This document shows positions 777 through 31,767 of a stretch of DNA of 33,521 bases, piece after piece. Positions within the stretch are counted from its first letter, which is position 1. Each line of letters begins with the position of its first letter. Below the pieces are notes generated by a model that saw only the letters and a list, made by a program, of their open reading frames with translations, ran no database searches and was not told the origin of the DNA. Source of the stretch: Chloroflexaceae bacterium (lineage in GTDB: Bacteria > Chloroflexota > Chloroflexia > Chloroflexales > Chloroflexaceae); NCBI GenBank assembly GCA_025057155.1, contig JANWYD010000031.1, positions 1 to 33,521 on the forward strand. The letters run 5' to 3'. A program made the position numbers and the translations under genes.

Positions 777-3125
777 TTACATCTCGCCGTAGAGTTCGAG
801 CAGCTCGCGCCACTCCCCGGTGAGTTCTTCGCGGCGGGCGGCATAGTAGAAGTGCGGCTCGCCGGACTCGTCTATGTAGACCAGATCGACCTGGCTGCGC
901 ATGGGCCGCAGGTAGCCCAGGTTGCCCCACCAGCGCACTTTGTCCTCATCGAGGGGGATGTCCTGCTGGTACATGCGGGCGGCGTACTCGCGCACGGTGC
1001 CTGGCTCGATATCCTGGAGGCGCCAGGGAACGCCGCTGACATCACCGGTGCGCAGGTTGCGGAAGACGTACTGCCACTCGCCGTCCTCGCCGCGGGTCGC
1101 GCTGACCACTTCGATGCCGGTGCGCGGGCGCGGCACGCGGATAAGGCTCAACCAGGCCTCGGTGAGCTTCTCGGCGGGAACGCCAGGATAGGACTGTTGG
1201 CCGCTGCCGTCCTTATCCTTCATCACCAGATCGAAGCGCACCTTGCCCGCTGCGTCGCGGGTCACCGCCACCAGGCCGCCACGGCCCCGCCAGCGGATGC
1301 GCCGCTCGCCCCAGGTTGCCGGCTCGGGCAGCGCGGCTTCGGTGGGCGCGTCGTCGGCGAGGGCGGGCATCACCGCTTCATCGCCCTGTTCAAAGGCCTG
1401 CGGCTCCTGTTCAACCACGTCGCCGCTGCGTTCGTTGAGCAGGGCCGCCCACGAGTCGCTGAGGCCCCAGTCGCTCACGCCAAAGAAGATGTGGTCAATC
1501 ACCCCGTTGGCATCACGATGGACCAGATCGTACTTGGTGCGATTGCCCTGGCGATAGGCGCGCCAGAGGCCCAGGCGCCCTTTCCAGCGCACCTGGCTGT
1601 GCAGGTCAATCCGGCCATCGCGGAGATCCTCATGGCGGCTGATGGCGTAGGCCCACAGGCCCTGGGCGCGATCGCGAGTAACCCCGGCGGTGGTGCGCAG
1701 GTCGCGCACCTCGTAGAGCCAGACGCCGCCCCGTTTGACGGCGCCGACGATCTCGACGCCTGAGCGAGGCAGATCCAGTTCCTCGCCATTATCCAACGGC
1801 GAGGATGCGCCTTCGGCGAGGGCGCGGCGGCAGAGTTGAATGATCTCGCCACGGTCGGCCAGGGCGGTCTCGCCATCGCGGCGGACATAGATCGTGCCAT
1901 TGGCGCCCACATACGGAGGGGTATCGGGGGCCTTGACCTCGACGCGCATGACATCCTGGCCTTCGTAGCTCATCAATTCGAAGGAGAGGTATGGCTGGGG
2001 AGTAATCTGCTCGGCGACGCTCCTGCGCAACGTCTCGCTGACCTGGTCGGGCCGCGTGACGCCGACGACCTTGCCGCCAGGCTCGCAGCCGATCACCAGC
2101 ACCCCGCCGCCAGCATTGGCCAGAGCGGCCACATCCTTCCACAGCTCAACGACCTGCGCGTCGTCGCCGGGGGCGCGCAGCACCTGCCGGTCAGAAGAAG
2201 CGCCAAAACGAACCGCGTCCACGGCCCACTGCTTCTGGTCGCGCTTGGGTACCCGCACCCGGTCGAAGTCCTGACTGGCAAAGAGCGCCTTAAGGGACTC
2301 GAAGCTAGGATCGGGCAGGAGCACCTCGAAGTAGCGATCGCCGATGCCGTGGCGGTGCAGAGCCTGCATATCGTCGTCGGGAAGGCGCCGCAGACGGTGG
2401 GCGTCGGAGCCCTGGATGCAAAACATGCGCCGTTCGTAGTGTTCGGTCTTTCCGTTGTAAAAGCCTGGCGAGGTGAACTTCTCGTGGTCGGTGTAGAAGT
2501 TCACAAACTCCAGGGCGTGCAGGTAGGGACTCTGGGTGACGGCGATGCGCGCCTGGCCGCTGGTCCCCATGCGCAGCGTTTCGGTGATCACCCCGTTGGG
2601 GCCATTAACGTGGGGGGCGATCACCAGGCCGCCCGCGCGGGCGATGATCTCGTAGGCTTCGGTCACATGGCGCGTATTGGCGATGCCGCAGATGCCCGAC
2701 TTGAGATGTTCAGCGGGAACGCCCAGTTGCAGCAGCGTCGTCTCAATCAGACTGATCGGACGGTTAGGCGGGAAGATGCCGAGGATGTGGGCGCCGAAGT
2801 GCGAGGTAAACTCAAACCCCGGCAGCACCGTGATGCGCGCCAGCAGGCGCCGGTATTCGATGAGGCGGGCCTGTTCCTCGGCCGTCAGCCGGCCAGCCTG
2901 CTCGAGAGCGCGCAAAAAGTCCAACTCACGCTGAAACTGTTCGTAGCCGTGAACCGTGTTATGGTCAGTAAAGGCAATGATGTCAAGCTCGCGTCGTTCC
3001 GCTTCCTGGAGAATATCGAGATAGGTGATTTCCGGTTCGGCGTAATCCTCAGAAGCCGGCGTATGAATGTGCAGATCGGCGCGAAACCAGCGCATTCCGT
3101 TGCGCACCTCACCAGGCGTGCTCAT
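777..3125 (-). CDS. PHP-domain phosphoesterase fused to AlbA_2 (Schlafen-like) domain with repeated C-terminal modules
   Basis: A 782-residue fusion protein. Residues 13-285 form a PHP metal-dependent phosphoesterase domain. Likely metal ligands are H19 and H21 (LHIHT), D54-H55 (FTDHN), E105 (GFEFTS), H113, H172 (APHVNG) and D241/H243 (GSDAH), so the site looks complete. Residues about 325-437 form an AlbA_2 domain, with the typical ALANAGGGVLVIG and GTIYVRRDGET segments. The rest holds a Trp-rich module found twice in full (about 457-562 and 670-779) and once as its second half (about 607-661). Each copy contains a VRWxGxLG-like strand, an FDLV/VDLVY segment and a WxxL end. No signal peptide is visible, so it is probably cytoplasmic. 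PHP domains cleave phosphoesters, and AlbA_2 domains are often linked to nucleic acids or defence, but the substrate here is unknown. It is a single gene without obvious operon partners. The start at 3125 begins just before the PHP motif; GTGGAG lies about 12-15 nt upstream. Confidence 0.85.
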   Translation of the reverse strand: MSTPGEVRNGMRWFRADLHIHTPASEDYAEPEITYLDILQEAERRELDIIAFTDHNTVHGYEQFQRELDFLRALEQAGRLTAEEQARLIEYRRLLARITVLPGFEFTSHFGAHILGIFPPNRPISLIETTLLQLGVPAEHLKSGICGIANTRHVTEAYEIIARAGGLVIAPHVNGPNGVITETLRMGTSGQARIAVTQSPYLHALEFVNFYTDHEKFTSPGFYNGKTEHYERRMFCIQGSDAHRLRRLPDDDMQALHRHGIGDRYFEVLLPDPSFESLKALFASQDFDRVRVPKRDQKQWAVDAVRFGASSDRQVLRAPGDDAQVVELWKDVAALANAGGGVLVIGCEPGGKVVGVTRPDQVSETLRRSVAEQITPQPYLSFELMSYEGQDVMRVEVKAPDTPPYVGANGTIYVRRDGETALADRGEIIQLCRRALAEGASSPLDNGEELDLPRSGVEIVGAVKRGGVWLYEVRDLRTTAGVTRDRAQGLWAYAISRHEDLRDGRIDLHSQVRWKGRLGLWRAYRQGNRTKYDLVHRDANGVIDHIFFGVSDWGLSDSWAALLNERSGDVVEQEPQAFEQGDEAVMPALADDAPTEAALPEPATWGERRIRWRGRGGLVAVTRDAAGKVRFDLVMKDKDGSGQQSYPGVPAEKLTEAWLSLIRVPRPRTGIEVVSATRGEDGEWQYVFRNLRTGDVSGVPWRLQDIEPGTVREYAARMYQQDIPLDEDKVRWWGNLGYLRPMRSQVDLVYIDESGEPHFYYAARREELTGEWRELLELYGEM

Positions 3126-3402: not shown

Positions 3403-4446
3403 TCAGCCTATCTCGATGCCTGTGCCGGGGATCACCTCGCCGATGCGCCAGCAGGGCTCGCTGGCGTCGGCGAAGCGCCGCAGCGCCTCGCTGGCGCGCT
3501 CGGGGGGCATGGCCAGCAGCAGGCCGCCGGAGGTCTGCGGATCGAAGAGCAGCAGGCGCAGAGCCTCGTCAATCGCATCAGCATAGCGCACGACGCCGCG
3601 CTCCTCCAGGTAGCGCCGGTTGCGACCCAGACCGCCGGGCGCGATCCCGGCCCGGGCGTACTCCAGGGCGCCGGGCAGGAGCGGCAGCGCATCAGCGACG
3701 ATGCGCAGGCCCACCTCGCCCACGCGGAGCATCTCAGCGGCATGGCCCAGCAGTCCGTAGCCGGTGACGTCTGTAGCCGCGCGGACGCCCGTCTCTGCCG
3801 CCAGTTCGGCGGCGCGGCGGTTCAGGCGCAGCATGCTTGCGACGGCCGCCTCCAGGTGGGCTGCCTCGACCAGGCCCCGTTTGGCCGCCGTGGTGATCAC
3901 CCCGGTACCAAGGGCCTTGGTGAGCAACAACACGTCGCCGGGCCGCGCCCCGACCGTGGGCGTGACCCGTGCCGGAGCGACCAGCCCGGTCACGCAAAGA
4001 CCATACTTCGGCTCACGGTCCACCACGGTATGCCCGCCGGCCAGCACCGCGCCAGCCTCGGCCACTTTGTCGGCCCCGCCCTGGAGGATCGCCGCCGCAA
4101 TCGCCGCGTCAAGATCCTCGGGAAAGGCGGCGATGGCCAGGGCCAGCACAGGCCGCCCACCCATGGCATACACATCGCTGAGGGCATTGGCCGCGGCAAT
4201 GGCGCCGAAGGTGTAGGGATCGTCCACGATTGGCGGAAAAAAGTCCACCGTCTGGACCAGCGCTGTATGCGCGTCCAGTTGATAGACGGCCGCGTCATCG
4301 CTGATCTCCAGGCCGATCAGCAGGTGTGGACTGGCAGGCAGCCGCAGCGCGGCCAGCAGGTTGGCAAGGGCCTCCGGCCCCAGTTTCGAGGCTCAGCCGG
4401 CGCAATCGGCCATGCGCGTCAGCCGCACCCGCTCACGCTCGTCCAT
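3403..4446 (-). CDS. selD: Selenide, water dikinase SelD, predicted selenoprotein (in-frame UGA = Sec18)
   Basis: SelD makes selenophosphate from selenide and ATP, the selenium donor for selenocysteine and selenouridine. Codons below 4392 give a clear SelD body: VDFFPPIVDDPYTFG, NALSDVYAMGG, AGGHTVVD, TDVTGYGLLGH and FDPQTSGGLL. Upstream the frame runs through a TGA at 4393-4395 and continues as SelD to an ATG at 4444-4446: MDERERVRLTRMADCAG-U-ASKLGPEAL, then LLIGLEISDDAAVYQLDA. The UGA falls exactly where E. coli SelD has catalytic Cys17 (AGCGCK versus AGUASK), and the essential Lys follows as K21. With readthrough the protein is 347 residues, the E. coli SelD length. A hairpin fitting the bacterial SECIS pattern begins 12 nt after the UGA. 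An internal GTG at 4248 would yield only 281 residues without the catalytic residues. An alternative upstream ATG at 4494 is possible. The real stop is also TGA (3403-3405). Sec at this position is known in other SelD proteins; that the UGA is decoded here is inferred. Confidence 0.9.
4367..4381 (-). promoter_or_regulatory. Candidate bacterial SECIS hairpin within selD
   Basis: On the selD mRNA, a 6-bp stem GGGGCC/GGCCCU (one G-U closing pair) has a GGA loop. The loop begins 18 nt after the UGA. This fits the published bacterial SECIS pattern as I recall it: a small loop with G in its first two positions, about 16-37 nt downstream of UGA. Only the fold was checked, by eye. Confidence 0.6.
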
Positions 4447-29976: not shown

Positions 29977-29993
29977 ACGCTTTTCCACAGCTA

Positions 29994-30228
29994 GGGGTAT
30001 GGGGAAACCGGGTTTCCCCACACCCCTTCAACGGGCGGTGGGGCTACCGATCCTTACCCCACCAGGTAGGGGGTATGGGGAAACCTGGTTTCCGCACACC
30101 CCGTCAACCGGCAGCGGGACTACCGGTCCTTACCCTCCGCCGCCAGGCAGGGGGTATGGGGAAACCTGGTTTCTCCATACTCCTTCAACCGGCAGTGGGA
30201 TTATCGATACCTTACCCTCCCCCACCGA
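29994..30228. repeat. Three tandem copies of a 76-81 bp hairpin unit
   Basis: Units begin at 29994, 30070 and 30151. Each has GGGGTATGGGGAAACC, then GGTTTCC, then CACCCC..TCAACNGGCNG and a CTTACCC end. The hairpin core in the first is GGGGAAACCGGGTTTCCCC (30001-30019). A lone copy of the core lies at 31747-31765. An open frame runs through the units into the next gene, but the encoded peptide is just the repeat translated, so it is not taken as coding. Confidence 0.8.
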
Positions 30229-30265
30229 GCGTAGCGCGGCGGGGGAAGGTGAAGACAAGACGCCT

Positions 30266-31732
30266 ATGGACGCCACCGAACTCGAACAACTGCTCAGCGC
30301 GGGCGAGGGGCCGGGAGTGGCCTTCGCCCGCGAGCGGGCGCGGCCCGACGAGCTTGCTGAAACCCTCGCTGCTTTCGCCAACGGGCGTGGCGGCACGCTG
30401 CTGCTGGGGGTGAGCGGGCGCGCGCGGGGCCGGGTGGAGGGCATCGGCGATGTCGCCGCTGCGCGCGATCTGGTGCTCGAGGCGGCCCTCTCCTGCACCC
30501 CGCCCCTGATCCTGCCCCTGCCGCAGCCGGCGACCCACGAGGAGCGCACCCTGCTCGTCGTCAGCGTGCCGGCGGGCCTCTCGCAGGTCTACGCCGTGCG
30601 GGGCAAGTACCTGCGGCGCGAAGGGAGCGCCAACCAGCCCCTGCCCCCCGAGGCCCTGCGGCGCCTGCTCCTCGAACGGGGCGAGGTAAGCTGGGAACGG
30701 GAGACGCCCCCCGGCGCGACCCTCGACGAACTCGATCCGCTCAAAGTGAGCGCCTACGCGCGGCGCATCGGCCCCGAGGCCGAAGCCGACCCCCTGAGCC
30801 TGCTCCAGCGCCGGGGCTGCATCGTCCGGCGCGATGGCGCGGGAACCCCTGTGGTCGCGCCGCGCGCCGAGGGGGAGGGCGGCGCCGGCGCGCTCTCCGA
30901 GGCGGAGGCGCGGGCCGCGTTTGCGCCCACCAATGCCGGGCTGCTGCTCTTCGCCCGCCAGGTGGAGGCCCGCTACCCCCAGGCCGAGATCACCCTGGTG
31001 CGCTACCGCGGGCGCGACATGGCCGACGCCTTCGAGCGCGAAGACGTGCGCGACACCCTGGTTGAGGCGCTGCGCCGGGCCGAACGCTGGCTGATGGAGC
31101 ACATGCGCAAGGGCAGCCGCATGGTCGGCCTCGAACGTCAGGACTGGACCCAGTTCCCCCCCGGCGCGGTGCGCGAGGCGCTGGTCAACGCTGTGGCCCA
31201 CCGCGACTACAGCGTGCGCGGCGAGGGCATCCGCGTCTCGCTCTTCAGCGACCGCCTGGAGGTCTACTCACCGGGCCGCCTGCCCGGCCACGTAACGGTG
31301 GAGAACATCGTCGAGGAGCGTTTCTCGCGCAACGAAACCCTGGTGCAGGTGCTGGCCGACCATGGCCTGATCGAGCGACTGGGCTACGGCATTGACCGCA
31401 TGCTGCGCCAGATGGCCGAGGCCGGCCTGCCCCCGCCGATCTTCCGCGAAACCGCCGCTGGCTTCCTCGTCACCCTGATCGGCCAGCCCGTGGAGGACCT
31501 GAGCGTCGAGGGGCTGGACACGCGCGAATGGGCGCGCATGGGCCTCAACGAGCGGCAGATCGCCGCCCTGCTCTTCGTGATGGACCAGCGGCGCATCACC
31601 AACCGCGACCTGCAGGAGCAGTTCCCCGAGGTCAGCGCCGAGAGCATCCGCCGCGACCTTGCCGACCTGGTCGAGCGGGGGATGCTGTTGAAGATCGGCG
31701 ACAAACGGGCGACGTACTATATTTTGAAGTGA
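30266..31732 (+). CDS. AlbA_2 / GHKL-ATPase / winged-helix protein (COG2865-type predicted regulator)
   Basis: 488 residues. Residues about 5-120 form an AlbA_2 (Schlafen-like) domain: LAETLAAFANGRGGTLLLGVS and YAVRGKYLRREGSANQPL. Residues about 290-400 form an ATP-binding domain of the RecG-like/HATPase_c_4 type (PPGAVREALVNAVAHRDYSVRGEGIRVSLFSDRLEVYSPGRLPG, RNETLVQVLADHGLIERLGYGIDRML). Residues about 425-485 are a DNA-binding winged helix (LNERQIAALLFVMDQRRITNRDLQEQFPEVSAESIRRDLADLVERGML). It is annotated elsewhere as a predicted transcriptional regulator or 'ATP-dependent DNA helicase RecG-related'; the function is unproven. The start at 30266 begins the conserved region. It has weak ribosome-binding support (GGAAGG about 17 nt upstream). 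A second AlbA_2 protein lies at 777-3125. Confidence 0.9.
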   Translation: MDATELEQLLSAGEGPGVAFARERARPDELAETLAAFANGRGGTLLLGVSGRARGRVEGIGDVAAARDLVLEAALSCTPPLILPLPQPATHEERTLLVVSVPAGLSQVYAVRGKYLRREGSANQPLPPEALRRLLLERGEVSWERETPPGATLDELDPLKVSAYARRIGPEAEADPLSLLQRRGCIVRRDGAGTPVVAPRAEGEGGAGALSEAEARAAFAPTNAGLLLFARQVEARYPQAEITLVRYRGRDMADAFEREDVRDTLVEALRRAERWLMEHMRKGSRMVGLERQDWTQFPPGAVREALVNAVAHRDYSVRGEGIRVSLFSDRLEVYSPGRLPGHVTVENIVEERFSRNETLVQVLADHGLIERLGYGIDRMLRQMAEAGLPPPIFRETAAGFLVTLIGQPVEDLSVEGLDTREWARMGLNERQIAALLFVMDQRRITNRDLQEQFPEVSAESIRRDLADLVERGMLLKIGDKRATYYILK

Positions 31733-31744
31733 TGCGTGGCGGGG

Positions 31745-31767
31745 GCGGGGAAACCGGGTTTCCCCGC
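31745..31767. repeat. GGGGAAACC hairpin, single copy after the AlbA_2/ATPase gene
   Basis: A 23-nt near-perfect palindrome with central GGGGAAACCGGGTTTCCCC, 12 bp after the stop codon and before the end of the convergent DUF4058 gene. There is no T-tract. Confidence 0.7.

Follow-up and report, generated by a model that had tools for sequence, protein, structure and literature searches.

FdhA and SelD are named as the most widespread bacterial selenoproteins in an excerpt of PMC1794560, and excerpts of PMC13188914 rank SelD as the second most expansive selenoprotein family and list Prx-like UxxC proteins as another such family. For a reference set of 223 genomes, a passage of PMC4561486 gives Sec in 19% of SelD and Cys in the rest. 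No survey of SelD across Chloroflexota was found in the literature searched, with supplementary files lying outside that search.

Here we describe the selD gene in a stretch of 33,521 nucleotides of Chloroflexaceae DNA (the window). To judge from the sequence comparisons given below, it is very probably (about 97%) a selenoprotein gene, with an in-frame UGA read as selenocysteine (Sec) at the active site. It is a well-supported Sec-containing SelD, and as such a gene of an already known kind.

The selD frame and its in-frame TGA

The following features were assigned in the window:

3403..4446, minus strand: selD, selenide water dikinase (selenophosphate synthetase), 347 residues with the predicted Sec18; TIGR00476; PDB 3u0o, 2yye
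4393..4395, minus strand: in-frame TGA, predicted to be read as selenocysteine, residue 18; aligned with Cys17 of 3u0o
4384..4386, minus strand: Lys21 codon; aligned with Lys20 of 3u0o; K in 80/80 loci (best 80 of 444)
4367..4381, minus strand: candidate bacterial SECIS hairpin, GGGGCC-GGA-GGCCCU

According to the original prediction a SelD frame is interrupted by the TGA at 4393-4395 alone, the UGA sits at the Cys17 position of E. coli SelD with the essential Lys three residues further on, and the total becomes 347 residues. All of this agrees with what we found. The frame begins with ATG at 4446-4444, runs through 16 further codons to the TGA at 4395-4393 and ends with the terminator TGA at 3405-3403, no other in-frame stop being present before the terminator, and readthrough of 4446-3403 gives the 347 residues. 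The readthrough product was then aligned to SelD proteins, as had been suggested. With C in place of U it reached 377.3 bits against the TIGR00476 selD profile (cut-off 125) over profile positions 1-310 of 311, and its residues 5-343 aligned at 265.3 bits with PDB 3u0o, which we take to be E. coli SelD. In the latter alignment residue 18 falls on Cys17, Ser20 on Cys19 and Lys21 on Lys20, and the N-terminal loop carries the catalytic Cys/Sec with a Lys after it, a feature of membership in the family. The product also aligns with the solved structure 2yye.

The GC content by codon position is 0.76/0.53/0.88 in the 17 codons before the TGA and 0.78/0.51/0.83 after it, and this similarity on both sides is the pattern expected of one continuous frame. 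Under the standard code an ORF of only 281 aa remains, starting at GTG 4248 and leaving out the catalytic loop.

Elsewhere in the window, 777-3125 (minus strand) encodes a protein of 782 residues that has a Schlafen AlbA_2 domain and whose N-terminus matches PHP below the threshold. The palindromic repeat GGGGAAACCNGGTTTCCCC occurs at 30001, 30077, 30158 and 31747 with at most 1 mismatch (29990-30184 and 31736-31765), and when up to 3 mismatches are allowed on both strands its pattern gives 17 matches against 1.2 expected. Three 74-nt copies of the repeat, spaced by 76 and 81 nt, lie within an apparent N-terminal extension of the ORF 29999-31732, the true start of which probably lies later.

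Residue 18 and the downstream hairpin among relatives

A search of the phylum found SelD in 314 of 400 genomes. At residue 18, 29 of the 30 loci taken from this search have a stop and one, L025 from the same genus, has Cys; after addition of 11 loci from a search of the class the codon is TGA in 40/41 and TGC in 1/41 (L025). A second collection, for which one of the six search peptides had Cys at residue 18, overlaps with these 41 loci; the contig of L078, for instance, and contig C22 of G222 are both 122,914 long. Of the 444 loci in this collection the best 80 were used, and the codon is TGA in 73 of them, including the locus L093 of the cultured relative Herpetosiphon aurantiacus, and TGC in the other 7, with no other stop in any best match. 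This conservation at residue 18 excludes an in-frame TGA that arose by chance. The closest named SelD among these best 80 loci belongs to Chloroflexaceae bacterium (L077, 91%), which puts the window within this family of the Chloroflexota or close to it. All of the best 80 have Gly17 and Lys21, and at residue 20, which corresponds to Cys19, they have Ser, Ala or Gly. Residue 15 is Cys in 68/80, and this Cys three residues before site 18 forms CxxU in 62 loci and CxxC in 6.

Of 150 genomes of the class, 109 gave a SelD match. The match contains a TGA in 102, covers the site without a stop in five (G222, G415, G447, G246 and G435) and is partial, not extending to residue 18, in two (G424 and G448). 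The 102 are counted by a TGA within the SelD match, the exact position having been read for the fetched loci only, and they include G483, whose match is split in two, one part having 3 TGA, probably owing to a frameshift. For the class as sampled, SelD with Sec is the rule. Among the close relatives, where Cys or Sec had been proposed as a check on residue 18, G094 and G370 have TGA and G222 has Cys; all three belong to the genus of the window.

In the bacterial SECIS model, as described in an excerpt of PMC13188914, the apical loop lies 16-37 nt after the UGA and has a G within its first two positions. The hairpin of the window selD fits this model with 17 nt from UGA to loop, the loop GGA and G as its first base. 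The best hairpin under the model has a mean of -8.6 kcal/mol in 40 genes with TGA; the corresponding means are -3.9 in synonymous shuffles and -3.5 elsewhere in these genes. A position within the best 5% of synonymous shuffles is reached by only 7/40 of them, and for the window selD the shuffle fraction is 0.137 and 0.208 of other gene places do equally well. Pairing of the helix amounts to 80.3% of cells, against 44-58% for slid helices and 76.6% for shuffles, none of 500 being as high, and the covariation score, 0.151 compared to 0.115, is equalled by 1/500 shuffles, in rows that are related to each other. Changes on both sides are found in only 2/8 helix pairs, and 110/500 shuffles reach as many. 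The conserved peptide GPGA fixes part of the hairpin. In L025, the gene with Cys, a stable hairpin persists (-14.0; 0.053) and might be a remnant. Shuffles and pair counts support the hairpin moderately. A SECIS hairpin after the selD UGA is probable, and because of the weak support from single-gene shuffles it was set aside as the main proof.

Selenocysteine machinery and a second predicted selenoprotein

The source genome, 5.13 Mb in 189 contigs with a stated completeness of 100, contains selA (566.9 bits, cut-off 267.9), selB (323.9 bits, cut-off 242.25) and a tRNA-Sec with the anticodon TCA (70.1 bits), whereas the next-best four matches of the tRNA-Sec search that were scanned (L017-L020) are Ser and Leu tRNAs. 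In the 33,521-nt window itself ARAGORN found no tRNA gene, and the tRNA-Trp seen in the genome has the anticodon CCA. The three components, whose absence had been named in advance as the finding that would speak against Sec decoding, are all there, and they support the claim of the original prediction that the organism decodes UGA as Sec.

An independent second Sec site in the source genome is predicted from its sequence in a peroxiredoxin-like protein (C7:278732-279148) with TGA in a UxxC motif, which passes PF00578 with 86.1 bits when C is written for U. When 17 genomes were searched with PF00578, 10 of them, the source genome and G222 among these, gave a single TGA-bearing match apiece. Nine of these ten form a family that shares the motif RIVSDRFF-U-P[NH]C, the TGA being common to the source genome and 8 relatives, and the tenth, from G415, is another kind of peroxiredoxin. 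Downstream of the TGA of this family, a hairpin with arms CCGCA/UGCGG appears in the predicted fold of 6/9 TGA rows, while in L187, L188 and L189 the fold picks another 5' arm; as the arms are invariant in the 8 aligned rows there is no covariation to test. Among the matches listed, G230, G353, G206, G166, G302, G110 and G246 have no TGA peroxiredoxin, and since G110 and G246 do have the machinery, the UxxC protein is not required for it.

In G086 two tandem peroxiredoxin-like genes were observed on the reverse strand of L190 (C29:80800-84300, near 1229 and 1877), one of Cys type with RIFSERVFCPNC and one with TGA and the motif RIVSDRFFUPHC. G230 has a Cys-type copy and, among the matches listed, no TGA copy. 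A Sec-to-Cys change was considered for G230 and rejected, as its protein resembles the Cys copy RIFSERVFCPNC of G086 (motifs judged by eye) and G086 carries Cys and Sec copies side by side.

Two other candidates for a role in this selenium metabolism were discarded. Formate dehydrogenase as the selenoprotein maintaining the Sec trait was dismissed because none of the 11 FDH-like matches of the source genome has an internal stop; two loci show Cys before His (ARLCHAPST in L054 and ARLCHSSTV in L057), presumably the Sec site of formate dehydrogenase, and the other FDH-like loci have no clear motif. Selenouridine synthesis, which would be a further outlet for selenophosphate, was rejected as SelU (TIGR03167) was not found: there was no match in the source genome, where 14 of the 45 first-look candidates were scored, and no match over the cut-off of 219.75 in any of 150 class genomes, 44 of which show weak matches of at most 26.5 bits. 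A control of the SelU search with 14 genomes gave matches in 7 and one over the cut-off. With no SelU over the cut-off, selenophosphate in the source genome is probably used for selenocysteine alone.

If the TGA at 4393-4395 were a true stop, translation would restart at GTG 4248 and give a truncated SelD, or the gene would be a pseudogene. The standard code does yield an ORF of exactly the 281 residues expected from such a restart, but its product would be devoid of the catalytic loop, which the relatives retain with either TGA or Cys at one residue, the codon-position composition is similar across the TGA, and selA, selB and tRNA-Sec are encoded in the same genome, all of which makes a true stop very unlikely. 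An error in sequencing or assembly that turned TGC or TGT into TGA might be suspected from the TGC at codon 18 of L025 in the same genus, yet TGA is present in 40/41 loci of separate genomes and in 73/80 of the best 80 of 444, sets that overlap, and an identical TGA in so many assemblies excludes an error for all practical purposes. Equally negligible is the chance that the whole genome reads UGA as one of the standard amino acids, for example Trp. A TGA within an otherwise open frame would be in line with it, but selD itself terminates at TGA and has its sole internal TGA at the Cys site, and a tRNA-Sec with anticodon TCA exists next to a tRNA-Trp seen with CCA.

With the UGA of selD read as Sec, what is known of the pathway suggests the following course. 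SelB would bring Sec-tRNA-Sec to the selD UGA, helped by the hairpin just downstream, and Sec18, located in the mobile N-terminal loop, would handle selenide. SelD would convert selenide, ATP and water to selenophosphate, which SelA would use for the conversion of Ser-tRNA-Sec to Sec-tRNA-Sec. By these steps the product of SelD would feed its own translation and also the synthesis of at least one further predicted selenoprotein, the peroxiredoxin-like UxxC protein.

Sister genomes and comparison with known systems

In the class, selA over the cut-off is found in 100/109 genomes with SelD compared to 16/41 without it (Fisher p 8e-11, a value that ignores kinship). It is missing in 6/102 genomes with TGA in SelD, with completeness of 51-90%; among the matches listed two of these six have a selA fragment, two weak matches only and two none. 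From 20 chosen genomes, tRNA-Sec was confirmed by ARAGORN in 14, namely the source genome and 13 others, and in the other six the best match falls on a Ser or Leu tRNA. SelB over the cut-off was found in 13 of the 20, mostly in agreement with the 14 tRNA-Sec genomes. The mismatches are G230 and G353, with tRNA-Sec and no selB over the cut-off, and G469, in which selA and selB are present, and tRNA-Sec and SelD were not found.

G230, of the same family and assembled as a single contig of 4.7 Mb, carries the tRNA-Sec L158 at C1:4496440-4496532 (70.9 bits, anticodon TCA), and showed no selA among the matches listed, no selB over the cut-off and no SelD at 1e-20. Its tRNA-Sec is an orphan. G353, in 320 contigs, resembles it with the tRNA-Sec L169 (55.1 bits). 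In G086, which is 99% complete, selA, selB, tRNA-Sec and the TGA peroxiredoxin are present and no SelD was found at 1e-20, with 14 of 17 candidates scored. Presence of selA without a SelD being found was also observed in G465, G469 and G481.

G222 encodes a Cys-SelD, yet has retained selA, selB and tRNA-Sec, pointing to another need for Sec in this genome or to a recent change. The three remaining genomes of its genus, which is that of the window, have TGA in SelD, and the SelD of G370 is less like that of the window (81%) than the one of G222 (89%). From this we infer an apparent change from Sec to Cys in SelD within the genus, as far as the sequences can tell.

It is also conceivable, though doubtful, that SelD of this lineage acts as a self-dependent selenium switch: it would make the precursor of its own Sec, no selenouridine outlet was found, CxxU replaces the pair Cys17/Cys19, and loss of selenium would shut the pathway abruptly. 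If true, this would help to explain complete or partial losses in close relatives, such as the orphan tRNA-Sec of G230 and the machinery without a detected SelD in G086.

For the window, recognition of selD as the gene of a predicted Sec-containing SelD mends how one gene is read, and it points to decoding of UGA as Sec at no fewer than two sites of the source genome. The interest lies in the relatives with Sec-SelD as the rule, the apparent Sec-to-Cys change, the orphan tRNA-Sec and machinery without SelD being found. With this rule in the sampled class, and with the apparent change and the loss of machinery among sister species, the group is suited for the study of how Sec is retained or lost.

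Compared to known systems, the gene shares with bacterial Sec-SelD (TIGR00476) Sec at the Cys17 site of 3u0o, Lys three residues on and the full length. E. coli SelD (3u0o) is the same enzyme, with Cys17 and Cys19 in place of the predicted Sec18 and of Ser20. The second TGA protein of the source genome has its UxxC in a PF00578 domain, like the Prx-like thiol:disulfide oxidoreductase selenoproteins. In contrast to the set described in the passage of PMC4561486, the ratio of Sec to Cys is reversed in the class sample, where 102 of 109 genomes with SelD have the TGA, 5 are without it and in 2 the site is uncovered.
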